Source: Blastocatellia bacterium
GTDB taxonomy: Bacteria; Acidobacteriota; Blastocatellia; UBA7656; JADIYM01
Reading direction: 5' to 3'
DNA: 47,432 bases
Assembly: GCA_021463145.1 (NCBI GenBank)
Contig: JAJTWZ010000030.1
Span: forward strand, 1 to 47,432
The notes under the pieces were generated by a model. That model had not been told where the DNA came from. It saw only the letters and a program-made list of their open reading frames with translations, and did not search any database. Positions 13,177 to 47,432 of this stretch are shown in pieces. A program made the position numbers and the translations under genes. The stretch's first letter is position 1. Each line of letters starts with the position of its first letter.

Positions 13177-13683
13177 ATGGACGACTCCTCATCGCTGAAC
13201 CTCGAGCACGACGCCGATGCGGCGTGGATGCGGGAGGCGCTCGACGAGGCTGCGGCGGCCGCCGCGGACGGGGAAGTGCCCATCGGAGCGGTCGTCGTTT
13301 TGAACTCTACAGTCATCGCGCGCGGTCGCAACCGGACCATCCGGGATTGCGACCCCACAGCCCACGCCGAGATCGTCGCGATCCGGATGGCTGCGGCAGC
13401 GGCCGGCAACTACCGGCTGACTGGCGCGACGATGTACGCCACGGTGGAGCCGTGCGCAATGTGCGCGGGCGCCCTCGTCTGGTCACGGATTTCCAGGCTC
13501 GTATACGCAGCTCCGGACGTTCGCGCCGGAGCCGTGAGATCGGTCTTTGAGATTTGCACGTCGGACACGCTGAACCATCGGCTCGAGGTCAGGGCGGGCG
13601 TCCTGGAGGACGATTCGCGCGAGCTGATGCAGGCCTTTTTTCGTGAGCGCCGCGTGCGTTCGCGGTCCGATGCGGAGGGGTAG
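13177..13683 (+). CDS. tadA: tRNA-specific adenosine deaminase
   Basis: Zinc deaminase that converts adenosine 34 of tRNA-Arg(ACG) to inosine. The 168-residue product has the deaminase core: DGEVPIGAVVV near residue 33, HAE (residues 63-65, zinc ligand and proton-shuttling Glu) and EPCAMC (residues 91-96, the two zinc-binding Cys). The usual RRVYAAPD-like segment (LVYAAPDVRAGAV) follows. Length and motif spacing are normal. The ATG at 13177 follows a predicted promoter with almost no leader. The stop codon lies inside the next gene: the last seven bases of coding sequence plus TAG form the acceptor stem and start of tRNA-Ser(CGA). An asymmetric relative such as guanine deaminase is less likely, given the tRNA neighbours. 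Confidence 0.93.
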   Translation: MDDSSSLNLEHDADAAWMREALDEAAAAAADGEVPIGAVVVLNSTVIARGRNRTIRDCDPTAHAEIVAIRMAAAAAGNYRLTGATMYATVEPCAMCAGALVWSRISRLVYAAPDVRAGAVRSVFEICTSDTLNHRLEVRAGVLEDDSRELMQAFFRERRVRSRSDAEG

Positions 13684-13759
13684 TCTAATTGGTAAGGCAC
13701 CGGTTTCGAAAACCGGCGCGCGAAAGCGCTTGGGGGTTCGAGTCCCCCCCTCTCCGCCA
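13674..13759 (+). tRNA. tRNA-Ser, anticodon CGA
   Basis: The sequence folds as a class II tRNA. Acceptor stem GGAGGGG (13674-13680) pairs with CCTCTCC with one G-U pair. The D arm is GTCT/AGGC, the anticodon stem CCGGT/ACCGG, and the loop TTCGAAA gives anticodon CGA for codon UCG. The long variable arm has a GCGC-GAAA-GCGC hairpin. The T arm is GGGGG-TTCGAGT-CCCCC. Discriminator G and an encoded CCA (13757-13759) follow. The first ten bases overlap the end of tadA. Confidence 0.92.
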
Positions 13760-13771
13760 CAAGTTCCTTGC

Positions 13772-13858
13772 GGAGGAGTGTCCGAGTGGCCGAAGGAGCG
13801 ACGTTGGAAACGTCGTGTACGGGCAACTGTACCGTGGGTTCGAATCCCACCTCCTCCG
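13772..13858 (+). tRNA. tRNA-Ser, anticodon GGA
   Basis: Acceptor stem GGAGGAG pairs with CTCCTCC (13851-13857), followed by discriminator G. The D arm includes TCCGAGTGGCCGAAGGA, typical of serine tRNAs. The anticodon stem CGACG/CGTCG with loop TTGGAAA gives anticodon GGA, reading UCC and UCU. A long variable arm (GTACGGGCAACTGTAC) and the T arm GTGGGTTCGAATCCCAC complete it. CCA is not encoded (GTT follows), unlike the neighbouring serine tRNA. Confidence 0.93.
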
Positions 13859-13870
13859 TTCCGAGTTATC

Positions 13871-13969
13871 GGGTTCGGACGCCGTGCAACGTCAGCTTGC
13901 GAATTCCGCCAGGGCCGAGAGGCAGCAACGGTAGTGAGTACTGGCGTGTGCCGCGGCCCCTCCGGACCC
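13871..13969 (+). ncRNA. ffs: Signal recognition particle RNA, small bacterial type (4.5S)
   Basis: RNA scaffold of the signal recognition particle, which binds Ffh and targets membrane proteins. The conserved apical domain is visible at 13907-13931: CCGCCAGGGCC, a GAGA tetraloop, then GGCAGCAACGG. This has the symmetric loop with CAGG on the 5' side and AGCA on the 3' side that Ffh recognises. The closing helix is GGGTTCGGA (13871-13879) with TCCGGACCC (13961-13969), joined by one U-G pair. Length near 99 bases fits the small form without an Alu domain. The neighbours (serine tRNA before, dnaX-ebfC-recR after) match the ffs position in many bacteria. Exact ends are estimates. Confidence 0.88.
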
Positions 13970-13980
13970 GGCCAGATCGA

Positions 13981-32774: not shown

Positions 32775-33152
32775 TCACGCCGACAGCCACGGTTTCGGGC
32801 GGGCAAAGGCGACCGAGTAGCCGTGCCCCCGGCCACCCGCCGCCATTTCGTCGTATCCGCACGACACAAAGAAGGCGGTGCTTCCGGCGTCGAGCAGGTC
32901 TCGAAGGCCTTCGTTGGAAACGTGCATCTCTGCCAGCGACTCGTCATTCGAGTGAACGGTGACGGCCACCCAGTCCGAACCCGGATCCCTGTGCAGCCGA
33001 ACGGAAAATCCTTTCGCCGCGCCAGAGTGTTCGTCGCCACCGAACGTTCGCGTGCACGCGCCGGACGCGAATGCGAGCTCGCGAAGCATCGATTCGGCGG
33101 CCGGGATGGCCGCGACCTCACGGCCGTCGTGCTTTATCTCGATTGTCAGCAT
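32775..33152 (-). CDS. Small hypothetical protein of the stress block
   Basis: Not recognised. The 125-residue product has no signal peptide or membrane helix and alternates short strands and helices: MLTIEIKHDGREVAAIPAAE at the start and WVAVTVHSNDESLAEMHVSN in the middle. It contains two Cys (GACTR, VSCGYD). The ATG at 33152 is preceded at about ten bases by GGAGGTG; a GTG four codons earlier overlaps that sequence and is less likely. It follows the DUF5335 gene after 21 bases and so is likely part of the same transcript, ending 24 bases from the convergent MBL gene. Confidence 0.6.
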   Translation of the reverse strand: MLTIEIKHDGREVAAIPAAESMLRELAFASGACTRTFGGDEHSGAAKGFSVRLHRDPGSDWVAVTVHSNDESLAEMHVSNEGLRDLLDAGSTAFFVSCGYDEMAAGGRGHGYSVAFARPKPWLSA

Positions 33153-33173
33153 TTTGCCCGGCACCTCCGCCGC

Positions 33174-33548
33174 CTACACATCTTCGGGGACGACCCCGGC
33201 CAGGAACCGGACGAGCGTGGTCGTACCGTCGGCCGCTTCGATGTCGAGCGTCTCGAAAGTACCGGTCGTCGTTCCGGTCTGTCCCACCCAGACGTGTGCC
33301 GGGGACGAGACGGTACGCGTCATCGACTCGTCGAGCCCGTGGCCGAGGTCGATCGTGATTCGATTCTCGCCGCCCTTCAGGTCGGCGTTGATTCCCTCGA
33401 ATCGAAGGGACCGGCCCTCCACCTGCGCTCCGAGGTTGGCGCCGAGCACTTCGACGGTGACGAGCCACCTGTCGTGGCGACGGCTGAAGTTGTTGAAGAA
33501 CGAGACCCAGTCTTCGCGCGGTATCTCGCGGACAATTTCGGTCGACAT
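33174..33548 (-). CDS. DUF5335 family protein
   Basis: Cytoplasmic protein of 124 residues. The start MSTEIVREIPREDWVSFFNN, then FSRRHDRWLVTVEVLGANLGAQVEGRSL, is characteristic of DUF5335, a family of unknown function that often lies beside universal stress proteins and heat-shock genes. The remainder is beta-rich (DGTTTLVRFLAGVVPEDV). A G-rich run (CTGAGATAGGGGGAATC) lies upstream of the ATG and can act as ribosome-binding site. A candidate sigma-54 promoter is about 40 bases upstream. It may thus belong to the same regulon as the two stress proteins. Confidence 0.75.
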   Translation of the reverse strand: MSTEIVREIPREDWVSFFNNFSRRHDRWLVTVEVLGANLGAQVEGRSLRFEGINADLKGGENRITIDLGHGLDESMTRTVSSPAHVWVGQTGTTTGTFETLDIEAADGTTTLVRFLAGVVPEDV

Positions 33549-33587
33549 GGCGATTCCCCCTATCTCAGGTCTTTCATCGCCAATTCA

Positions 33588-33603
33588 GGCACGTGTCGTG
33601 CCG
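33588..33603 (-). promoter_or_regulatory. Candidate sigma-54 promoter of the DUF5335 gene
   Basis: On the minus strand the site reads CGGCACGACACGTGCC. It has GG and GC ten bases apart and a good -24 part, but GTGC instead of TTGC at -12. Transcription would start near 33577, about 29 bases before the ATG. The site is also a near-palindrome (GGCACG-TGT-CGTGCC), so it might instead be a protein-binding dyad. Confidence 0.4.
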
Positions 33604-33673
33604 CGGCCCGGTTCGGCTCGAGTTCGGCCATCGCCTGGGTCCACCCCCGCCTGGCTGCGTCCCGACCGCGGCC

Positions 33674-33930
33674 CTACGCTTGTGGTTCGAGGGCTCGGGC
33701 CAGGTGCTGCGGAATTTTCCGCTCCACGATGCGGAAGATTCCCTCCCACTGCTGGAAATGACGGGGCGGAGGATCTGCCGGATCGCACCGCCTGTTCTCG
33801 ATGAAGTCAGATGTCGTCAGTTGAACCAATTGGCGCGCTTCCGCCTCGAGCGCCGCTCCCGACTGAGCACTCGAGGAAACAGGCAGCAGGCAAGGGATCA
33901 GCCACGCCGTCGGCGAAACCCGGTGGCCTC
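33674..33930 (-). pseudogene. Truncated paralogue of the secreted-protein gene
   Basis: In one minus-strand frame the DNA encodes TAWLIPCLLPVSSSAQSGAA, then EAEARQLVQLTTS. This matches the signal-peptide end and mature start of the protein at 23690-24535. After LTTS the similarity is lost: the frame continues for about 45 unrelated residues to a TAG at 33674. Upstream, the signal peptide lacks a start codon, and the frame before it is degenerate. I therefore call it a decayed 5' fragment and not a working gene. Confidence 0.65.
33813..33908 (-). repeat. Direct repeat copy 2 (remnant of the secreted-protein gene)
   Basis: Aligns without gaps to 24405-24500 in the same orientation, about 85 % identical by eye, with most changes at the signal-peptide end. 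Similarity fades on both sides. Confidence 0.8.
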
Positions 33931-34082
33931 GGCGCGACGAGGAGCCACGAGCCCGCCGCGGGCGCAGTGGATGTTTGCCAGGGCGGTGATCGACATGCCG
34001 ACGCCGCGGCTATCGCACGCCGCCTCGAGCCGGCGAAAGGCCTCGAGAGCGAGCGTTTCCGCGACGTCGACGTTCGCTGCGA

Positions 34083-36278
<2,196 letters not shown>

Positions 36279-36355
36279 TCATTCTGCAGTATCTGGCTTC
36301 TACGTGGGGAGGCGCAACGGGTCGGGTTCCGGAGCGCGGGCGCGATCCGGTGCCG

Positions 36356-37444
36356 CTACTTCCCGGCGGCCGGTGCGCCGTCGAGCTTCGCCTGGATCTC
36401 CTTGCGATCCTCGTCGGTCGTGGCGAGTTTTAGCGCTTCGGCCCACGCGGCTTTCGCGCCGGCGGCGTCCTTCGATAGCTCGCGGCATTCGCCGAGGTAC
36501 CACCACGCGTCCATGTCCGCTGGAAACAAGCGCGTTGCGACCTCGAACATGACGGCGGCGCGTGCCGGATCGCTGCGCTTCGTCTTGATGAAGTTGCCGC
36601 ACACGAGCAGGTCGTAGGACCGCGGCGTTCGGCTCCGGTACTCGGCCACGAGCGCCGGCATGCCGGCGCGCAGTTGCTCGACGGAACGCGACGCAAACCG
36701 GTCCGCCTCTACTGCGGGCTTAATGCCCTTCTCGAGCGTCTCGGTGAGCATCGACAGGCTGCACACGTCCTCGAAGCCCGAGCCCTTCGCCGAATTCGTC
36801 GGCACGATCCAGGCGACGTCGAGTCTGCGGTCGGCAAGGAACGCTGCGAGCGACGTCTTCCGAGTGTTCACGACTTCGTGGTAGTCGAGCGGCTTGTTGA
36901 AGAGACATCCGCTGACGAGCGCCTTCGCGCCGGGCAGTTCGACGACCATGTATTCGTCGGCCGGAATCTCGTAGCGGTCCTTCTTCAGGACGTGCGCGCG
37001 CAGCGTGTAAGTGCCGTCGGCGAGCTCGAAGACCGACCCGATCTTCAGCACGCTCCTGTCGATTTGGGAAGGCGTGCCGGCCAGGCCGCGAATCTGATCG
37101 AGATTCCATGCGGTGGTAACGATCGTGATGCCGGCCGCGGCGAGCGGATCGAGCGCGCCGATGGAATGGTTGTGATGGTGCGTGTGGAACGCGAAGCGGA
37201 CGGGCTTGTCTGGAAATTTCTCGCGCAGGAGCGCGAGCAGTGCGCGGGCCGTGGCATCGTCGTGCGGCACTTCGACGATGGCGAGAAACGTCTCGAACTC
37301 GGCGATGACGGATTTGAGGTTGAGGTCGTCGTACCAGACGACGTGCACGCCGGGCCACTGTATGGCGAGCCGTGGCGGCGTCGACGCACGGGCGGACGGA
37401 CAGACGAACGCGAGAACGAGCAGGCAGAGCGCGAGTCGTGACAT
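36356..37444 (-). CDS. Secreted metallo-beta-lactamase-like protein with C-terminal TPR
   Basis: Exported protein of 362 residues. A signal peptide ([19 protein letters not shown]) is followed by a metallo-beta-lactamase-like fold: [10 protein letters not shown], the metal site [10 protein letters not shown] that parallels HxHxDH, and a later [10 protein letters not shown] segment with the Cys seen in class B enzymes. A helix pair at 285-340 ([38 protein letters not shown]) looks like TPR repeats. The usual Asp of HxHxDH is Asn here, so zinc binding may be altered. The ATG at 37444 has AAGGAG seven bases upstream. It is 119 bases downstream of katG on the same strand; substrate and function are unknown. 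Confidence 0.72.
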
Positions 37445-37706
37445 GGGGATCTCCTTGTGTGTCGTACCGTCGGCTCTGTCGGTTCGGAGGGCGTTGGCGT
37501 ATGACAGGAGACGAGAATGCAACTCGGATGCGACGCACTGGACGGATCGAACGGATCGGAGCGACGGCCAGGATCCGGCCGATACGCTCGATCCGCGTTG
37601 CTCCCCGGCCTCCTCGACGCGGTGCACACCAGTGCTGCTGTAAAACTCTGTAACGGATTTCCTACGGGGTGCGGGAATCGCTTGCTTGCGGGTTCATAAT
37701 TCTCGC

Positions 37707-38435
37707 GTGGCGACGCTGCCGACACGCGCGATCGGGGTAGTGCTCGGCGTCCTCGCGCTCGGTACGCTGACGCTCTCGACGCTGCACGCACAGGTCGCGA
37801 CACCGTCTCCGGCGCCCGTGACTCCCGAAGTGCGCCAGGCGCCACCCGCCGAGTCCGGCCGCAAGACGAGCACGCCTTATGAAGGCGATCTATCGGTCTT
37901 CGAAGATGCGGATCGGGCACGGAACCTCCAGATCGATCGCGTCATGGACCTGCTCGGGATAGGTCCAGGATCGACGGTCGCCGACATCGGCGCGGGTTCG
38001 GGATGGTTCTCGGTGCTGGCAGCAAAGCGAGTCGGGCCGGAGGGCAGGGTATGGGCCGTCGACATCAGCAAGGCCGCCGTCGATCACATCGCCAAACGGG
38101 CGGTTGACGAAGGCCTTCCGCAGATCGTTTCCGTGCTCGGCAAGACTGCCGACCCGCAGCTTCCGCCCGCAGGCATCGACGCCGCGCTGATCCTCAAGAC
38201 ATACCACGAGTTCGAGAAGCCGGTAACGATGATGCACAACCTGCGCATTGCGCTGCGCGGCAAGGGACTGGTCGGCATCATCGACAAGACGGGGACGGGA
38301 ACGAACCACGGAGTGCCGGTCGAAACCGTCATCGACGAGTGCCGGCGCGCGGGATTCGAGCTTGCCGGGACATACGACTTCGTCGCGAGCGACGGCGTGG
38401 ACTACTTGCTCGTTTTCCGGCCGGTGGCGAGATAG
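37707..38435 (+). CDS. Class I SAM-dependent methyltransferase with N-terminal export signal
   Basis: Methyltransferase of about 242 residues. The SAM-binding loop is VADIGAGSGWFSVLAAKRVG, followed by RVWAVDISKAAVDHI and an acidic ALILKTYHEFEKP region. The N-terminus (ATLPTRAIGVVLGVLALGTL, then TLSTLHAQ) looks like a signal peptide or anchor, which is odd because SAM is cytoplasmic. The substrate is unknown. The start is uncertain: GTG at 37707 precedes the hydrophobic stretch, while TTG at 37686 adds seven residues. A CATAAT hexamer at 37695-37700 could be a -10 element that would make the GTG leaderless. It converges with the lysine operon end at 38513. Confidence 0.68.
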   Translation: MATLPTRAIGVVLGVLALGTLTLSTLHAQVATPSPAPVTPEVRQAPPAESGRKTSTPYEGDLSVFEDADRARNLQIDRVMDLLGIGPGSTVADIGAGSGWFSVLAAKRVGPEGRVWAVDISKAAVDHIAKRAVDEGLPQIVSVLGKTADPQLPPAGIDAALILKTYHEFEKPVTMMHNLRIALRGKGLVGIIDKTGTGTNHGVPVETVIDECRRAGFELAGTYDFVASDGVDYLLVFRPVAR

Positions 38436-38512
38436 CGGCGGACGGACCGGCAACGGCGTTACTTTCGCGCTACCGGTGGATCGATGCCGGGGAAATCTGA
38501 ATCACTCGCAAT

Positions 38513-39025
38513 TCACGTTTGTCCGCCGCCGCCCGGCTCGCCCGGGAAATGGCCGGTTGACCGGACGTACGCGACGATGCCTCCCGCGTCGAGGATCTCG
38601 CGCACGAACGCAGGCGGCGCCGGAAGCTCGTGAGATCCCGACTGCGATGTCAGGCGGCCCGTTCCGGCATCGAGCGTGACCTGCTCGCCGTCGGCCAGCG
38701 ATTCGGCGAGTGTCGCGGACACGAACACCGGGATCCCGAGGTTTACGGCGTTTCTGTAGAAAATTCGCGCGAAGCTCCTGGCAATCACGGCTCCAATGCC
38801 GCGACGCCGCAGCGCCTCGGGAGCATACTCGCGCGATGAGCCACAGCCGAAGTTCTCGCCGGCGACGATGACGTCGCCGGGTTGGGCATCGCTTGCGAAG
38901 TCCGGACGGGCTTCGATGAATGCGAACTGGGCCACGTCCTCGCCAGGGCGCATGTACGGCGCGTAGCGTCCCGGTACGATTTGATCGGTGTCGACGTCGT
39001 CTCCGAACAGCCAGACTCGAGCCAT
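38513..39025 (-). CDS. lysU: Homoaconitase small subunit, LysU/LeuD family
   Basis: Small subunit of the iron-sulfur dehydratase that isomerises homocitrate to homoisocitrate. The 170-residue product begins [20 protein letters not shown] and has the swivel-domain motifs [16 protein letters not shown] and [17 protein letters not shown]. The specificity loop after GRY reads APYM, which resembles LysU-type proteins more than the RTT-type loop of leucine-pathway LeuD. The C-terminus GHFPGEP also fits LysU. Its ATG shares a base with the lysT stop (TGATG). It is the last gene of the lysine operon; a leucine-pathway LeuD remains the main alternative. Confidence 0.85.
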
Positions 39026-40260
39026 CAGATGACCTCCGCGGGATGCGTGATCGATCCCGTAATCGCAGTCGCCGCCGCCACGTGCGGCGAAGCAAGGTAG
39101 ATCTGAGCCGACGGAGATCCCATGCGGCCCTTGAAGTTCCTGTTGCCGGTCGACAAGCAGACCTCTTCGTCCCCGAGCGTCCCTTGATGACGGCCCATGC
39201 ACGGCCCGCATCCTGGAGCCGTCACCGTGGCGCCCGCGGCCACGAGGCGGGCAAGCGTTCCATCCGAGGCAGCGCGCTCGAACACGAGGCTCGACGATGG
39301 GCTCACCATCAGCCTGACGCCAGGCGCAATCCTCCTTCCGTTCAGCAGGTCGGCGACGATGCGCAGGTCGGCGTACCGGCCATTCGTGCACGTGCCGACG
39401 AAAACGACGTCCACTGGTTTGCCGGCCACTTCACCGAGATCGACGACGTTGTCGACTGCGTGCGGAAGCGCGACCTGGGGCTCGAGCGACGAGAGATCGA
39501 TGCGATGTTCTCGCGATACCGGCGCCGAAGGATCGAAGGCGAGCCACGATGGCGGCGCGAGGCCGTCGAGAGCGGCTCCTGTGGGAGGCACTATTCCCGC
39601 CTTGGCGCCGATCTCGACCGCCATGCTCGCGAGCGTCTGCCGGCCCGGCAGGTCAAGCCAGTCGAGCCCGTGATACTCGACCGCGCAGTAAGTTGCGCCC
39701 GCAATCGTGAGCTCGCGGCCGACTCGAAGTGCAAGATCTTTCGCGTCCACACCGGCGCGGAACCGGCCCTCGAAAACGAGGCGGATCGTTTCGGGGACCT
39801 TTAGCCAGGTCTTTCCCGTCCCAAGCGCAAGAGCGATGTCGGTCGACCCCATTCCCGAGCCGAACGCGCCGACCGCACCGTAGCTCGTCGAGTGCGAGTC
39901 TGAGCCGAGTATGAGCATTCCGGGCCGGGCGAGGTGCTCCTCGACGAGCACCTGATGGCAGATGCCGCGGCCGACGTCGAACAGGCGGATGCCCTGCTCG
40001 CGCGCGAAGCGCCTCACTTCGTTCTGCGCGTTTGCGGTTCCGACGGTCGATGCGGGGGCGACATGGTCGATGACGACCGCAACCCGCGACGGATCGAAGA
40101 CGCGGGCGATGCCAAGGTCTTCTTTCATGATCCGGACGATGGAAGGCGTCAGTGAATCGTGAGTCATAACCAGGTCAGGAGAAACGACGACAAGGTCGCC
40201 GGCCTCGACGCGGCGTCCCGCGGCGTTCGACAGAATCTGCTCAGCGATGGTTTGTGGCAC
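39025..40260 (-). CDS. lysT: Homoaconitase large subunit, LysT/LeuC family
   Basis: Large subunit of the aconitase-type dehydratase of the alpha-aminoadipate route. The 411-residue product has the three iron-sulfur cysteines: one in VFVGTCTNGRYADL and two in GCGPCMGRHQG. Substrate-loop sequences GSDSHSTSYGAVGAFGSGMG and STGNRNFKGRMG are present. GTG at 40260 is chosen because AGGAG lies eight bases upstream; an ATG at 40284 is possible but overlaps the preceding gene further. It follows the homocitrate synthase gene, which ties it to lysine more than to leucine synthesis. Confidence 0.87.
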   Translation of the reverse strand: MPQTIAEQILSNAAGRRVEAGDLVVVSPDLVMTHDSLTPSIVRIMKEDLGIARVFDPSRVAVVIDHVAPASTVGTANAQNEVRRFAREQGIRLFDVGRGICHQVLVEEHLARPGMLILGSDSHSTSYGAVGAFGSGMGSTDIALALGTGKTWLKVPETIRLVFEGRFRAGVDAKDLALRVGRELTIAGATYCAVEYHGLDWLDLPGRQTLASMAVEIGAKAGIVPPTGAALDGLAPPSWLAFDPSAPVSREHRIDLSSLEPQVALPHAVDNVVDLGEVAGKPVDVVFVGTCTNGRYADLRIVADLLNGRRIAPGVRLMVSPSSSLVFERAASDGTLARLVAAGATVTAPGCGPCMGRHQGTLGDEEVCLSTGNRNFKGRMGSPSAQIYLASPHVAAATAITGSITHPAEVI

Positions 40261-41398
40261 GGAAGCTCTCCTCTTCTGCTGCAAGGTCGGCCAATAGACT
40301 GTCTACGTCATCCATCGTGACCGTTCCCGCGTCGGCCCGATCCTTGATCAGTCGAGTTGCGGCGCGCAGGCGGGCCTCGTCGAGATCGAAGCCGAGCTGA
40401 CGGGCGCGCTCTCGTATTGCGTTCCATCCGGTCAGCCGGTGTGCAACGTGGATCTGGCGGGACAGTCCGAAGACTTCGGGCCGAAGCACTTCGTACGTCG
40501 ATGGATCGTTGATGACGGCCTTCGTGTGGATGCCCGCCTTGTGCGAGAACGCCGACGAGCCGGTGATGCAGTTGTTGAAGGGAATCTCCAGCCCGAGCAC
40601 GCGCGCGACGTACGCATCGAGGTCCACCAGCGCCGTGAGGTCGTAGCGCTCGACGAGCGAGCTGTCGATGACGAAGAGCCGCGCGACCAGACCGCCGAGC
40701 GGCGTAATGCCATTGCGTTCGCCGATACCGAGTACGGTCGTGTCGATGTGCGTGGCTCCGGCCTCGAGCGCAGCGTAGGCGTTCGCCACCGCGCACCCCG
40801 TGTCGTTGTGACCGTGGAACTCGATGTCTGCGCCAATCCTTGACCGGAGTTCGGACACGAGAGAGAAGACCTGTGAGGGCGTTCCAATTCCGACGGTATC
40901 CGCGATACCGACACGGTCGACACCGGCTCGGTCCACGGCTTCGTAGATTGCGAACAGTTCGGCGGGCTCGGTGCGAAGCGCGTCCTCGCAGCTGAACCGC
41001 ACCTCGAGCCCCTGCGATGCGAGGTAGGCGATGACTTCGAGCGCGAGATCTACGATCGCGCCGACGGACTTTCCGTGGCTGTTTGCGCGAAGTTGCGGAG
41101 ACGTGCCAATCACGATATTCGCGCAGTCGACGCCGGTGTCGACGACCCTGGCCGCGTCTTCCATGTGGCATCGTGTATGCGTGACCACCTTGGCGCGAAG
41201 GCCGAGCCGCGCGATTTCGACACAGTCGGCGAGGCTGGCCGTGGATGCGAGCGGCGACGTCAGTTCGACGTACTCCACTCCGAACCGGTCGAGAAGCCGG
41301 GCGATGCCGATCTTCTCGTCACGTGAAAAGGACGCGGTTGCGAACTGCTCTCCTTCGCGAAGTGTCGAGTCGACTATTGAGTAGCGTCCGATTGTCAT
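40241..41398 (-). CDS. lys20: Homocitrate synthase
   Basis: Condenses 2-oxoglutarate with acetyl-CoA to homocitrate, the first step of lysine synthesis by the alpha-aminoadipate route. The 385-residue TIM-barrel product starts YSIVDSTLREGEQFATASFS, the R-E pair being catalytic. It has VEYVELTSPLAS, RFSCEDALRTEP, FHGHNDTGCAVANAYAALEA with metal-binding His residues, GIGERNGITPLGG, and FNNCITGSSAFSHKAGIHTK. This set closely follows Thermus Lys20, and not isopropylmalate or citramalate synthase. The ATG at 41398 overlaps the lysK stop by ATGA, and GAGGA lies about eight bases upstream. Feedback inhibition by lysine is usual in the family but cannot be shown here. Confidence 0.93.
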   Translation of the reverse strand: MTIGRYSIVDSTLREGEQFATASFSRDEKIGIARLLDRFGVEYVELTSPLASTASLADCVEIARLGLRAKVVTHTRCHMEDAARVVDTGVDCANIVIGTSPQLRANSHGKSVGAIVDLALEVIAYLASQGLEVRFSCEDALRTEPAELFAIYEAVDRAGVDRVGIADTVGIGTPSQVFSLVSELRSRIGADIEFHGHNDTGCAVANAYAALEAGATHIDTTVLGIGERNGITPLGGLVARLFVIDSSLVERYDLTALVDLDAYVARVLGLEIPFNNCITGSSAFSHKAGIHTKAVINDPSTYEVLRPEVFGLSRQIHVAHRLTGWNAIRERARQLGFDLDEARLRAATRLIKDRADAGTVTMDDVDSLLADLAAEEESFRATNHR

Positions 41399-42480
41399 AG
41401 CGATGTCCTCTCGTCGGCTGCGTGCGCCGGAAGTGCCGCGAGCACGTCGCGCAATACGTCGACGGCCGACAGGTACTCGGCGATCGAGATGTGTTCCTCT
41501 GGCGTGTGATCGAGGCGGCTGTCGCCGGGCCCGTAGGCGACGATCGGGCAGCGCCAGCGCGGCCCGACGACGTTCATGTCGGAGGTGCCGGTTTTGGTCT
41601 TGAATCGTGGATTGCCGCCCGCCCGCCTGATGGCTCCGAGAAAGGGCCGGGCCAGTGGAGTCGTGCGATCTGAAGAAATTGCCCTCTCGGCAGCCCGGAA
41701 TCGCACAGAGCCCGCGTGCGCAAGCTCGCTCACGGCATTCTCGAGCGACTCGATGTCGAAGCCGGGAGGAAGCCGGAATCCGACGGTCGCGAGGGCGAGG
41801 TCGGTCCGGCCGTCCGACGACGTCCGGACGTCGCGAAGCGAGCACTGCAGTTGGTCGAAGACGCGGCCGCGTCCGGCGTTGAACGCGTCCGCGTGGGCGC
41901 GCACGCCGTTCCACCATTCGACCGCGTGCTCGGCGACCGACGCATCGGGACCGGCCGAATGGCTCGAGGCGCGCTCGACCCGATAGTCGGCGAGCAGCCG
42001 GCCCTTGTATCCGAGCGTAATCGAATCCCATCCGCTGGGCTCGCCGATGATGCAGGCGTCCGGACGCATGTACTCGGCGAAGTGCCGTGCGCCGCGGGAC
42101 GACGCCGACTCCTCCTCGACGGCGCCGACGACCGTGACCCGCACGCCGGGGGGTAATTCAGCAGTTGCGGTTGCCGCCACGAACGCCGCGAGTGGGCCCT
42201 TCGCGTCCACGGCGCCTCGGCCGTGCAGCAGGTCGCCTTCGCGCCGTACCGGTATCCAGCCGGGAACGGTATCCATGTGTCCCAGGAGCACGACGTCGTA
42301 GCGCGCCTTGCCGTCGCCCTGGCGGCTGCCGACGGCATTGCCGGCGGCGTCGACCGTAGCCGTGAGGCCGGCGCGCGCCATCCGGCCGGAAAGGAAGCGG
42401 GCAAGAGCCGCCTCGCGGCCCGAGAAACTCTCTATCTCGAGCATATCAACCAGTAGGTCGACCGATTCGCCGGGCGTCAC
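41395..42480 (-). CDS. lysK: [LysW]-lysine hydrolase, M20 family
   Basis: Releases lysine (or ornithine) from the carrier protein LysW at the end of the pathway. The 361-residue M20 metallopeptidase has [12 protein letters not shown] (metal His and Asp), [14 protein letters not shown], the catalytic GAVEEESAS and the metal-binding [16 protein letters not shown]; the closing HTPEEHISI has a further ligand His. GTG at 42480 is chosen for GGGAGGTG upstream and sits in a GTGA overlap with the lysJ stop. Its stop overlaps the homocitrate synthase start. The tight position inside the lys operon separates it from ArgE or DapE relatives. Confidence 0.9.
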
Positions 42481-43703
42481 GATGCACCTCCCACACCTGT
42501 ATCGAGTAGCGATGCCGCTTCGCAAATGACGGCCTCGACCAGGTCGAGGGCCCTGTCGAGTTCGTCATCCGAGATGACGAGCGGAGGCAGCAGTCTCAAG
42601 ACCGTGTTTCCCGCCGGGAGTGCGAGGACGCCGCGCGCGAGCAGCGCGGCAAGCAACGGTGTCGCGCGAACTCGCAGCTCGATGCCGATCATTGCGCCGG
42701 AGACGCGCACCTCGCGCACAACACGAGCAGGCAGGCCTTCCAGCCGCATTCGCGCGCGTTCGCCGATCTCAGCCGCTCGCGAGACCAGTCCGTCGCGTTC
42801 GCACGCTTCGATGGCGGCGAGCGCGGCGGCGCAGGCGAGGGGATTGCCGCCGAAGGTCGATCCATGCGATCCAGTGGGTATTCGGCCGACGCGAGGGCCG
42901 ATTCCGACGGCGCCCATTGGAACTCCTCCTGCGATCGCCTTTCCCATGCAAACGAGGTCCGGCGTCAGGGCGTGGTGTTCGAACGCGAACCATCGTCCGG
43001 TCCGTCCGAATCCGGTCTGGACCTCGTCGACGATCAGCAGCGCGCCGCGCGAGGCGCATAGCTCGGCGACCGCCTTGAAATAGGGCGTAGGCTGCGTTCT
43101 CACGCCGCCCTCTCCCTGGACGATTTCCACGATCACCGCCGCCGTACGGCCGTCGACCGCGGCCGAAACGGCGTCGACGTCGCCGAACGCAACGTGCCGG
43201 AATCCCGGAACGAGCGGTTCGAAGGGCTCGCGGTAGGCCGGGTTCCAGGTCGCCGAGAGCGCGCCAAGCGTGCGCCCGTGAAACCCCCTTCTCATCGCGA
43301 CGATCTCTGTTCGCCCCGTGGAAAGCCGTGCGAACTTTATCGCGGCCTCGACCGCCTCGGCACCCGAGTTGCAGAGAAAGAAGCGGTCCACGCCATCCGG
43401 CATCAATCGGGCCAGACGTTCGAGCAGTGCGGCGCGACGGTCGTTGAAGTACGTCTCGGGGCACGTGATCAACAGCCGCGCCTGCGACGAGATCGCTTCC
43501 ACCAGGTCCGGATGGGCGTGGCCGAGGGTTGCGACTCCGTGACCGGACGAGCAGTCGATGTACTGCCGGCCGCCGGCGTCCCAGACGCGCGCGCCGCTGC
43601 CCTTGACGATGGCGACGCCGCGCTTGGCGTATGCGCCACACGCGTGGCGCTCTTCGATTGCCGTGGACGAAGCGGCGAGACGCGTCCCTGTTGTCGTGTT
43701 CAT
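42477..43703 (-). CDS. lysJ: [LysW]-aminoadipate semialdehyde transaminase
   Basis: PLP-dependent class III aminotransferase that converts LysW-bound aminoadipate semialdehyde into LysW-bound lysine. The 408-residue product has SGHGVATLGHAHPDLV, CNSGAEAVEAAIKFARLSTGR, GFHGRTLGALSAT, LIVDEVQTGFGRTG and the Schiff-base lysine in VCMGKAIAGGVPMG. GSHGSTFGGNPLACAAALA follows. Length and motifs are normal for ArgD/LysJ proteins; the neighbours decide for LysJ. The next gene upstream in the operon, lysZ, ends only three bases before its ATG. Confidence 0.91.
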   Translation of the reverse strand: MNTTTGTRLAASSTAIEERHACGAYAKRGVAIVKGSGARVWDAGGRQYIDCSSGHGVATLGHAHPDLVEAISSQARLLITCPETYFNDRRAALLERLARLMPDGVDRFFLCNSGAEAVEAAIKFARLSTGRTEIVAMRRGFHGRTLGALSATWNPAYREPFEPLVPGFRHVAFGDVDAVSAAVDGRTAAVIVEIVQGEGGVRTQPTPYFKAVAELCASRGALLIVDEVQTGFGRTGRWFAFEHHALTPDLVCMGKAIAGGVPMGAVGIGPRVGRIPTGSHGSTFGGNPLACAAALAAIEACERDGLVSRAAEIGERARMRLEGLPARVVREVRVSGAMIGIELRVRATPLLAALLARGVLALPAGNTVLRLLPPLVISDDELDRALDLVEAVICEAASLLDTGVGGAS

Positions 43704-43706
43704 GTC

Positions 43707-44510
43707 TTAGGAAATGACTGTGCCTTCGCCTTCGAGGGCGCGGCTGATGGGATTTGGACCGATTGCGGAACCGAGCACGACGCGGGGCACGCCGCCTTCG
43801 AGAGCCTCACGCGCGGCGAGCAGCTTCGTGCGCATGCGCCCGCGAGCGAACTTCCCCGCCGCATCGAGTTCGTCGCGCGACACCCGTCGAACGACGGACG
43901 ACGGGTCCGGAAAGCGCTCGAGAAGCCCTGCGACGTTCGAAAGGATCACCAGTTCCGAGGCGGATAGCGCCGAGGCGGTTGCGGCCGCCGCGCGGTCGCC
44001 GTCGACGTTGATGGCAGAGCCGCAATAGCTGAGCGCGGGAGGAGTCAGCACGGGAAGAATGTTCGAGCGCGCCAGTTCGGCGAGCAGCGACGTGTTCACT
44101 CGTTCGACGCGTCCGGTGTAGTCGTCGCGGATGACGGTGGTTCGGCCGCCGTCAACCGATCGGATCGATGTCTTGCGCGGACCTTGCCAGACCGGACCGT
44201 CGAGTCCCGACAGTCCGATGGCTGGCACTCCGCGCTTGTGAAGCCGTTCGACAACGCCCTTGTTGACGAGGCCGCAGTAGACCATTTCGAAGATCTCGAG
44301 CGTCCGGCGATCGGTCCTCCGGCTCGTGTATCCCGATGGAGACGTGATGAACCGCGGAGCGTGGCCGAGCTGTTCTGCCAGGCGATTCGTTTCGTGTGAG
44401 CCGCCGTGCACGAGCACAACCGGCCTGCCGTTGCCGGCGATCGCGGCCAGGTCGTCGCAGACTGCGTCCAGATCGATTCCTTCCGCACCACCCACTTTGA
44501 CTACGAGCAC
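43707..44510 (-). CDS. lysZ: [LysW]-aminoadipate kinase
   Basis: Phosphorylates the side-chain carboxylate of LysW-bound aminoadipate. The 267-residue amino-acid-kinase-fold product begins MLVVKVGGAEGIDLDAV and carries LVHGGSHETNRLAEQLG, ITSPSGYTSRRTDRRTLEIF, NTSLLAELARSNILPVL and SAINVDGDRAAAATASAL, with LILSNVAG-like VILSNVAGLLER. The YTSRRTD...EMVYCGLVNKGVV stretch is typical of LysZ and differs from ArgB. It lies between lysY (17 bases upstream) and lysJ. Confidence 0.91.
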   Translation of the reverse strand: MLVVKVGGAEGIDLDAVCDDLAAIAGNGRPVVLVHGGSHETNRLAEQLGHAPRFITSPSGYTSRRTDRRTLEIFEMVYCGLVNKGVVERLHKRGVPAIGLSGLDGPVWQGPRKTSIRSVDGGRTTVIRDDYTGRVERVNTSLLAELARSNILPVLTPPALSYCGSAINVDGDRAAAATASALSASELVILSNVAGLLERFPDPSSVVRRVSRDELDAAGKFARGRMRTKLLAAREALEGGVPRVVLGSAIGPNPISRALEGEGTVIS

Positions 44511-44527
44511 GATAGACCTCCCTCGAA

Positions 44528-45553
44528 CTACGCGGGGTGGAGTCCCGGAAACGAAAGGCCGGCGGTTTCATCCACGCCGGTCATCAGGTTCATGACCTGG
44601 ACGGCAGTTCCAGCTGCGCCCTTCATCAGGTTGTCGAGCGCGCTGATCACGACGAGGCGGTTGGACCTGGGGTCACGCTCGAACCCCACGTCGCAGAAGT
44701 TCGATCCGGCCAGCAGTTTTGGATCGGGCAGTCTGTGGATGCCGGAGCGCTCGCGAACTATCCGCACGAAGGGTTCGCCGGCGTACGCGCTCCTGAACAG
44801 TGCCCACGCTTCCCGTTCGTCGATGGCCTCGCGCAGGAAGACGTGCGCGGTGCACGCGACCCCGCGGACCATCTCTATCGCCGTGGCGGACAGATGAAGT
44901 TCGAATGGGCCCAGTTCCTGTGCGACTTCGGCGTGGTGCCGGTGACCCGCCGGAGCAAAGGATCTGACGGCGCCGCTTCTCTCGGGATGGTGCGACGACG
45001 ATGTCGCCGAGCTGCCGGCTTCGGACGATCCCACTTTCAGGTCGCAGATTGCGCGCTCGATGAGCCCGGCGCGGGCAAGCGGAAGGAGTGCGAGCATCAC
45101 GGCCGTGGCATTGCATCCGACGCCGCTTGCGTACCGGGCTTCGCGCAAGGCATCGCGGTGCAGTTCGGGAAGGCCGTAGACGAAGCGGTCGAGCCACTCC
45201 GGCGCGGGATGTTCGGATTCGTACCATTGGCGGAAGACGCCGGGGTTGCGCAGGCGAAAGTCGGCGGACAGGTCGACGAGCCTGTCGCACAGTGAAGCCG
45301 CCCGGTCGATGTCCGTCGCGCTGCGCCCGTGCGGAAGGGCAAGGAAGAGAACGTCGCAGGGCTCGAGGTCGTCGAATCGGACGAAACGAAGGCCGGTCGC
45401 GCCCTTCAAATTCGGATGTACCGAGTGGACGAACGAGCCCGCCCGGCGTTCGGAGGTCACCTGGGCGAGCTCGACCTCGGGGTGGAAGAGCAGCAGTCGT
45501 ATCAGCTCTCCGCCGGCGTATCCGCTGCCACCCGCGATGCTCACCTTCAGCAT
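44528..45553 (-). CDS. lysY: [LysW]-aminoadipate 6-phosphate reductase
   Basis: NADPH-dependent reductase that makes LysW-bound aminoadipate semialdehyde. The 341-residue product resembles Arg[19 protein letters not shown] for nucleotide binding, [31 protein letters not shown], and the catalytic Cys in [18 protein letters not shown]. The end [19 protein letters not shown] is also typical. The ATG at 45553 has GAGG six bases upstream and overlaps the lysX stop by seven bases. The spacer between lysY and lysZ is short. Confidence 0.91.
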
Positions 45554-46428
45554 GGGACGGCCTCCCAGGCTTCGGCGCATCGTCGTGATCCAGCGACGCC
45601 GGCGACGTAGTCGACGATGCGCCCGGGAATATCGACGCCCGTCGGCTCGATGCTGTTGCGGAACTCCATCGTATGGTTGACCTCGTTGACGAGCAGGCCG
45701 CGGTCCGGCGATTCGAGGAGGTCGATGGCCAGGATTCCGCCACCTACGGCGCGAGCCGCGGCGCGCGATACCTCGTCGATCTCGCCGGTGACCGTGCATC
45801 CCGCAGCGCGTGCGCCGCGCGCGGTGTTCGTGACCCAGTGTTCCGACGTGCGCGTTATCGCGCAGATCGTCTCGTCGCCGACGACGAAGCTTCGGATGTC
45901 GCGACCCGGCTTGCGAACGTGCTCCTGAACGTAGAAGGTCGAGTGCGATGTCGAGCCAAGAGTCGACTTGTGCTCGAGCACGGCTTCGGCCGCGTCACGA
46001 TCGTTGACCCGGGCGATGAGCCGTCCCCAGGAGCCCACGGTCGGCTTGAGAACGGCTGGGTAGCCGATCGTTTCGATCGCTTCGATCGCCGATTCGGGAG
46101 AGAACGCCGCGAGAGTGCGCGGGGTCGGAACTCCGGCGCTTGCGAGCGCAAGGGATGTCCGCAGCTTGTCGCCGCAGGTCTCGATTACGCGAGACTCGTT
46201 AATGCAGGGAATGCCGAATCGCTCGAGGACGTGGGTGGCGGCCAGACCCTGCGTGTGGCTGATCGAGCGGTCGAGGATCGCGTCGTAGGGGGGAAGCCGG
46301 TTCTCGTGGATGTCGAAGACGATGCGCCGAGCGTCGACGAGATCGCACGCTATGCCGCGCTGTGCGAACGCTTCGATCAGAAGGCGCTCTTCGATGCGGA
46401 TGCGGTGATAGAGAAGTGCGATTCGCAT
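45547..46428 (-). CDS. lysX: Alpha-aminoadipate-LysW ligase
   Basis: ATP-grasp (RimK-like) ligase that attaches aminoadipate (or glutamate) to the C-terminal glutamate of LysW. The 293-residue product begins [20 protein letters not shown] and has the ATP-grasp motifs [38 protein letters not shown] and the metal-binding [16 protein letters not shown]. Residue choice in this region decides between aminoadipate (LysX) and glutamate (ArgX) binding. By eye it is LysX-like, and the homocitrate genes downstream agree, but a dual role in arginine synthesis is known in some species. The ATG shares a base with the lysW stop (TGATG). Confidence 0.91.
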
Positions 46429-46598
46429 CACTCGCCCCAGTCCTCTTCGATCTCGGGCGCGAGTGCGAGTTCGAGTGGTGCGATGCCGAGTACTTCAAGT
46501 TCGACGCCGCAATCGCGGCAAGGCGCGATCTCGCCGACCATTGGAGCCACTGCAATCGCGACGTCGCCGCCGCATTCGATACACGCTGTCGTTGTCAT
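46428..46598 (-). CDS. lysW: Amino-group carrier protein LysW
   Basis: Small acidic carrier protein, 56 residues. Its C-terminal Glu56 holds aminoadipate by an isopeptide bond, protecting the amino group while LysZ, LysY and LysJ act, until LysK releases lysine. The sequence shows the zinc-ribbon cysteines Cys6 and Cys9 in TACIECGGD, Cys27 and Cys30 in PCRDCGVEL, and the signature end EIEEDWGE. The ATG at 46598 is preceded by GGGAGGC at about five bases. It is the first gene of the operon; the lysX ATG overlaps its stop (TGATG). The assignment is secure from the C-terminus and context. Confidence 0.96.
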
Positions 46599-46609
46599 GG
46601 TGCCTCCCG

Positions 46610-46650
46610 AAAAAAAGAACGGGCCCGCCGGAAGTCCGGCGGGCCCGTTC
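46610..46650 (-). terminator. Intrinsic terminator / candidate attenuator in the lys operon leader
   Basis: A perfect 16-base stem, GAACGGGCCCGCCGGA paired with TCCGGCGGGCCCGTTC, has a two-base loop and is followed on the minus strand by seven T. The T-run ends one base before the GGGAGGC ribosome-binding site of lysW. No promoter can fit between hairpin and lysW, so operon transcripts must pass through it. That is the arrangement of a transcription attenuator and not of an ordinary terminator. Confidence 0.85.
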
Positions 46651-46675
46651 GCTTGTGCCCCGGAATTCTTTCGCT

Positions 46676-46759
46676 TCAGGGCAAAGCGCGACCAACCAGA
46701 CTGGTGTCCGGTGCCGGTTTCGCTCCCGATTTGAAGAACTCAGAAAATGTTCGCTGCAT
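46676..46759 (-). CDS. Possible leader peptide upstream of the lys operon attenuator
   Basis: A 27-codon open frame starts at ATG 46759 and stops at TGA 46676, 25 bases before the terminator stem. It begins MQRTFSEFFKSGAK and ends VGRALP. A weak AGGA lies upstream. It holds only two Lys and two Arg codons, not a run, so it is not a classic attenuation peptide. It may be chance. Confidence 0.25.
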   Translation of the reverse strand: MQRTFSEFFKSGAKPAPDTSLVGRALP

Positions 46760-46802
46760 GAATCGTCCTGTCGTCAACGTCCGGATGGTGCCGGAACGAG
46801 AA

Positions 46803-46836
46803 AAGCCGCCGTACCTGGTTCGGCACGGCGGCTTTG
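46803..46836 (-). terminator. Terminator-like hairpin, possibly bidirectional
   Basis: AAGCCGCCGT and ACGGCGGCTT form a ten-base stem with a loop of about a dozen bases that may pair further. On the minus strand it is followed by TTTTCTCG; on the plus strand only by TTG. It most likely ends transcription arriving from the right, before the lys leader. Confidence 0.65.
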
Positions 46837-47289
46837 AATCCTGATGATCTTTGTCGCGTTCAGGACACGGGCCACGGGCCGGACAGAAGGTCCGCCTGGG
46901 GTTTGGTCCCTTTGGCTGCGAGTTGGCAAGCGAGCGCGTTCATGATCGACGCGCAGAATGCCCGATGATTCCTGGCGCGTCAAGCAGGATTTTTGCGAGC
47001 GTCCTCCCGGACGGCGTTCGGCGTGCGGCCGACGATGCACTTCGCTCGAGATTGGGAAGGCGTACGTGGCGCGGTCGAGGCAGATGCGATGGCCTGCGCG
47101 CGGGCGAGTCGCCGGCCCCGGAGCGGTTGCAGGGTCAATTGCGGGATGACGACGGCGGCGCCTGCGTCTCTCGGAAGACAGTGCGACCGCCCCGCGGTCG
47201 GGGCGTGGTTGGGTGCGTAGGGCGGGTCACGTCGGTTCGCGTGGCTCACAGCCGTGCCTCCCGGCAGTTACGAAACACGGTCTTGCGTG
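46837..47289. other. Intergenic region at the right edge, no firm gene
   Basis: These 453 bases separate the right-edge gene from the lys leader. Short frames on both strands lack supporting signals. One 27-codon minus frame (46857-46940, starting MNALACQLAAKGTK) ends just before the terminator stem and might be a small gene, but it has no ribosome-binding site. A GACCGC-CCC-GCGGTC palindrome lies at 47185-47199. Confidence 0.4.
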
Positions 47290-47432
47290 TCAGGCGTCGT
47301 CCGGGAATTCTGACTTTTCCTCGATCGTCACGTTGACACCAAGTGCTGCGAGCTTGCGCACCAATCGCTCTCGCTCGCACCATTTTACGAGCGCCGGATC
47401 GGCATGACCGCGAAGCGGTCGCGGACCATCCT
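47290..47432 (-). CDS. 3' end of an unidentified minus-strand gene (partial)
   Basis: One minus-strand frame is open from the window edge to TGA at 47290 and encodes 46 residues with protein-like composition, such as ADPALVKWCERERLVRKLAA, then LGVNVTIEEKSEFPDDA at the end. The mix of charged helix and strand residues is unlike the Arg/Ser/Ala-rich shadow frames here. The family cannot be named from the fragment. Transcription would run toward the lys operon and probably ends at the hairpin at 46803-46836. Confidence 0.55.
   Translation of the reverse strand, partial: DGPRPLRGHADPALVKWCERERLVRKLAALGVNVTIEEKSEFPDDA

Follow-up and report, generated by a model that had tools for sequence, protein, structure and literature searches.

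Two serial, homologous leader units before a LysW-type lysine operon of one Acidobacteriota lineage: a probable tandem ribosome-mediated attenuator

In the 47,432-nucleotide contig of a Blastocatellia bacterium analyzed here (the window), a strong hairpin ends just before the first gene of a lysine operon, which raises the question of whether, and by what signal, this hairpin controls the operon. The operon lies on the minus strand and has nine genes, lysW-X-Y-Z-J-K-hcs-lysT-lysU by NCBIfam/Pfam, in agreement with a preliminary description of this DNA: lysW at 46428..46598 (PF21344, 52 bits, above cut-off), followed by lysX, lysY, lysZ, lysJ, lysK, homocitrate synthase (hcs), lysT and lysU at 38513..46428 (NCBIfam). 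The hairpin, T2 (46610..46650, minus strand), consists of the stem-loop GAACGGGCCCGCCGG-ACTT-CCGGCGGGCCCGTTC at 46650-46617, with 15 perfect pairs and a 4-base loop, and a T7 at 46616-46610, after which come one C, GGGAGG and the lysW ATG at 46598. The seven T and the single base before the ribosome site are thus as first described, and the stem, given then as a perfect 16 bp, reaches 16 pairs only with the inclusion of an A-T pair that would close a 2-base loop. In a scan of 33000-47432, no other terminator-like site comes close to T2 in strength, and we predict it to be an intrinsic terminator placed between a leader frame and the first gene.

We found that T2 is the last element of a longer leader made of two homologous units in series, each featuring a 27-codon leader peptide frame, then a hairpin with the stop codon, and finally a terminator (ORF-A/T1 at 46943-46802 and ORF-B/T2 at 46759-46610, both minus strand). 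The folding energy of the 261-base leader lies 6 standard deviations under that of dinucleotide shuffles (z -6.0). A putative sigma70 promoter, TTGACG-17-CATTCT (46955..46983, minus strand), is a weak match (8/12 to consensus) located 11 bases 5' of the ORF-A ATG. ORF-A (MNALACQLAAKGTKPQADLLSGPWPVS; 46860..46943, minus strand) contains two AAA lysine codons at codons 11 and 14 (46913-46911 and 46904-46902) and precedes T1 (46802..46835, minus strand), a terminator-like hairpin of 14 pairs with the short T tract TTTTCT. The second unit, on the same strand, begins with an AGGA (46769-46766) 5' of ORF-B (MQRTFSEFFKSGAKPAPDTSLVGRALP; 46676..46759), whose two AAA codons are codons 10 and 14 (46732-46730 and 46720-46718). 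Its further parts are arm 1 (CCGGAC, 46706..46711), which folding predicts to be the partner of arm 2 in the absence of a stalled ribosome; arm 2 (AGTCTGGT, 46695..46702), the 5' side of an antiterminator detected by covariation; the inner hairpin GCTTTGCCC..GGGGCACAAGC (46651..46687), which contains the ORF-B stop codon; and arm 3 (GCCGGACT, 46633..46640), common to the antiterminator and T2. In both units the stop codon of the frame sits in the 5' side of the inner hairpin, between the frame and the terminator. The preliminary description had ORF-B and its lack of a lysine run right, and the frame with its two lysine codons stands; ORF-B is not the only leader frame, however, as ORF-A (46943-46860) and the T1 hairpin (46835-46802) had been overlooked, and so had the leader's homology to lysine-codon leaders elsewhere.

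That homology emerges from related operons. A LysX scan over one genome per species (84,980 species) yielded 80 loci, mostly from Chloroflexota. In the operon relatives of that phylum these units, frequently two in a row, precede lysW, lysX or homocitrate synthase, and their peptides are full of lysine codons (KKGKK). The missing lysine run is therefore a property of the window leaders and not of their relatives. Loci L032, L034-L036 and L038 have two serial leader peptides before lysW, both with many lysine codons. In L032, whose LysX is 66% identical to that of the window and whose gene order lysW-X-Y-Z-J-K-hcs is as in the window, these are MNARIELNTKKGKKTYTDR and MKKQVKKNKPGHCLVCCASP, first and second respectively, and the second leader of L034 is MNTNFSLQFKKGKKTKPPPVLVCCATP. 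ORF-B is homologous to the lysine leaders found before lysW in the relatives, with the consensus MNT(N/T)FS..(F/L)KKGKKTKPPPVLVCCA(T/V)P: it aligns end to end and ungapped with the L034 and L035 leaders, with 12/27 identical residues, a score equaled by 0-1 of 200,000 shuffles, and is the best aligner among 546 short frames of the window. In nucleotide sequence, TCTGGT is kept across the relatives, as is a large part of the terminator. Direct comparison of ORF-A with the second leaders of L034/L035 was not significant, and its likely homology is derived from a covariance model (see below). In five Chloroflexota relatives, TTGACA-16/17-TAnAnT stands exactly 7 bases 5' of the matching first-leader ATG; because of this exact distance from a good -10 element, translation of the first leader in these loci probably has a leaderless start.

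An attenuator requires two conserved, mutually exclusive helices, and a MAFFT alignment of six units, repeated with twelve, points to such a pair. The 8-pair antiterminator AGTCTGGT:GCCGGACT shows standard pairs at 48/48 positions in the six sequences, with compensatory changes; its outer two pairs occur as four pair types each (GC/AU/CG/UA and UA/AU/GC/GU), its covariation score was reached by 0/500 shuffles, and sliding the partners by 1-3 columns drops pairing to 25-48%. Arm 3 also takes part in the terminator helix, which has 98.8% pairing in the six units and 7 doubly changed pairs; across twelve units the antiterminator and the terminator are 97.9% and 98.7% paired, respectively. In the window, the T2 antiterminator is fully paired, with outer pairs that differ on both sides from those of the relatives. 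The case for it rests on this covariation, since its duplex energy alone was equaled by 61/500 shuffles. With a ribosome placed at codon K14 of ORF-B, where it covers arm 1, the RNA left free beyond it is predicted to form the antiterminator, and the terminator wins once the 3' arm of T2 is added. The mutually exclusive structures and the leader covariation envisaged in the preliminary description were both recovered for unit B. The antiterminator predicted for T1 was no better than shuffles (108/500), so that a candidate antiterminator formed on the 5' arm of the terminator was found for unit B only.

To follow the family, we used a covariance model, R1, built from six units, with unit A of the window absent from the training set. 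It matched that unit (46792..46917, minus strand, overlapping ORF-A) with 33.8 bits (E 3.4e-5 in a search of 832 kb), as well as the first units of L032, L034-L036 and L038. Beyond the window, R1 gave 34 matches at E<0.01 on the same strand, at 30 distinct places of the 832 kb. For each of them the next lys gene is lysW, lysX or hcs, <400 bases away in all but one case, and each comes with a lysine-containing leader. In Anaerolineae, the class of the L034 genome, 32/396 genomes match, the strong matches being located before lysW or hcs. Among Acidobacteriota a real match is displayed by 1/396 genomes, namely the source genome only; nine weak matches in other members of the phylum, none near lys genes, were taken as chance. 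The lysW loci of the same order and class encode a distant LysW (at most 57% identity), and R1 matched no unit in them. The window LysX is 66% identical to Chloroflexota versions vs 59-60% to those of same-class relatives. Among the class relatives L107 carries a Terriglobia name, and judged from the relatives Acidobacteriota is the likely phylum of the source genome. Given that the source genome alone carries the unit among the 396 Acidobacteriota, the operon and its leader were probably acquired together from a Chloroflexota-like donor, joint transfer being the simplest reading of these sequences.

Several further arrangements surfaced in these searches. Lysine attenuators of this family are found inside Anaerolineae lysine operons, directly 5' of homocitrate synthase (L083:851-1008, L054:838-955, L072:771-889 and L045:792-911), and the genome of L038, which has the tandem before lysW, features another before hcs on a second contig (L172). 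In Ktedonobacteria (L071, L075, L091, L052 and L094), a strong terminator, GCTCTTCGTCC..GGATGAAGGGC with a T-run, precedes lysW, in L071, L075 and L091 about 160 bases 5' of the lysW Cys codon; these five loci lack a lysine-rich leader of the kind searched for, and an Rfam scan of L052, L071 and L094 gave no T-box. T-boxes had first been guessed for the Chloroflexota terminators, and Rfam gave no support. Phycisphaerae-type loci (L037, L076, L085 and L087) have lysine leaders with spaced lysine codons (SKSAKAKAKA, AKAKDAK) before lysW, which fall outside or at the edge of R1 and are perhaps independent or very distant. Elsewhere in the window, two tRNA-Ser genes and a small SRP RNA lie in a row (13674-13970, plus strand).

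The Rfam scans agree with the earlier remark that neither a lysine riboswitch nor a T-box is present: at the gathering score no T-box was found in the window or in 27 related loci, nor did the leader give one even with the E limit relaxed to 10, and the lysine aptamer matched neither the window, the leader nor the related loci. A match to ctRNA_pGA1 (RF00236; 42.5 bits, below the gathering score of 45) is a look-alike by virtue of its two-hairpin outline, from a different setting, and a PtaRNA1 match is likewise a look-alike, owing to a palindromic stem.

Accounting for these elements together, we consider it likely that two serial ribosome-mediated transcription attenuators, sensing charged tRNA-Lys, control the lysine operon. 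RNA polymerase would start just 5' of ORF-A, and a ribosome would translate the short leader peptide of each unit. When charged tRNA-Lys is scarce, the ribosome would stall at the lysine codons and cover arm 1, leaving arm 2 to pair with arm 3 as the antiterminator, so that no terminator forms and lysW onward is transcribed; when lysine is plentiful, it would reach the stop codon, arm 2 would pair with arm 1, and T1 or T2 would halt transcription. The lysine genes would in effect run only when lysine is short. Both units, the homology to lysine-codon leaders and the conserved mutually exclusive helices of unit B are observed; translation, stalling, termination and the same workings in unit A are what we infer from them. 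Counting against this reading are the weak T tract of T1 and the weak promoter.

Lysine sensing by the window leaders would also require a pair of AAA codons in each to be sufficient; every relative examined has 3-7 lysine codons per leader, vs two non-adjacent ones in each window leader. Across the 52 non-start leader codons, lysine is only slightly above chance (P 0.04). It is thus conceivable, if unlikely, that the attenuator has decayed, its lysine codons having been lost after transfer and the two hairpins now lowering readthrough at a fixed rate; the chance-level T1 antiterminator would fit such decay. Against it, both frames are open, the changed outer pairs of the window T2 antiterminator still match, and the remaining lysine codons are 4/4 AAA, a codon that 30 predicted genes of the window use for 49/312 lysines (15.7%; P about 6e-4, in a test chosen after the codons had been seen). 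One genome of the genus was compared, too few for a measure of selection on the window leader. Few lysine codons may suffice in such a lysine-poor proteome, as lysine makes up 2.5% of the codons of those 30 genes and about 1.2% in the lys operon; its enzymes (38513-46598, minus strand) have 34 lysines in about 2720 codons.

The low number of lysine codons would also fit a new kind of sensing, in which an aptamer, a protein that binds the RNA or an arrest peptide replaced stalling at lysine codons, and the C-terminal part of the peptide (LV....P) is partly conserved. Yet the LV codons coincide with the TCTGGT arm of the antiterminator, so that RNA pairing accounts for their conservation, and the homologs are plain lysine-codon leaders. 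As the window frame is homologous to lysine-codon-rich leaders that occupy this position in related operons, no new sensing is needed; we regard it as highly improbable, and the homology points to classic ribosome-mediated attenuation rather than to the undescribed mechanism suggested earlier. Still more improbable is that T1 and T2 are plain terminators of an upstream gene, with lysW using its own promoter. Terminators are commonly found between genes and a same-strand upstream frame ends at 47290, but the T-run of T2 ends only about ten bases from the lysW start, and no promoter therefore fits between them; the leader peptide and antiterminator are, moreover, kept in relatives. The initial view of T2 as an attenuator of the lysine operon is upheld on these grounds.

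The proposed mechanism is a known one, in a new arrangement and lineage. The trp, his, thr and leu leaders of enterics are the classic ribosome-mediated attenuators, and the window leader resembles them in a short frame with candidate control codons, an antiterminator predicted to be excluded by a 1:2 hairpin and a terminator just before the first gene, whereas it is tandem, belongs to a separate sequence family and has an inner hairpin with the stop codon. Leader-peptide attenuation has reportedly been described for the lysine cluster of Thermus thermophilus, which is likewise said to combine LysW-type lysine genes, a lysine-codon leader peptide and transcription attenuation; in contrast, the window has two serial units before lysW, few lysine codons and a different phylum. 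The literature that we searched contained no paper on attenuation of lysW or of the Thermus lysine genes. Salmonella mgtCBR, too, places two attenuators one after the other within a single leader, together with two short frames; its units answer different signals, ATP and proline, an arrangement termed singular (PMC3641672), whereas the window units are homologous to each other and seem geared to one and the same amino acid.

Two serial attenuators for the same amino acid are unusual, and no Rfam family covers the leader unit at gathering score. The genome has both tRNA-Lys(UUU) and tRNA-Lys(CUU), and since AAG, the major codon, is also readable by the latter, AAA leaders could single out tRNA-Lys(UUU); that the two same-signal attenuators, each with its lysine codons cut to a pair of the minor AAA, respond solely to how far tRNA-Lys(UUU) is charged and not to lysine generally is a speculation that we hold to be rather doubtful. 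The sparse AAA codons of the window offer a clean test of the minimum number of control codons per attenuator. Such a leader is best judged with its relatives, as the absent lysine run misled the reading from the sequence alone. With this leader, the LysW-type lysine operons of Chloroflexota and of one Acidobacteriota lineage would gain a regulatory mechanism with testable parts.
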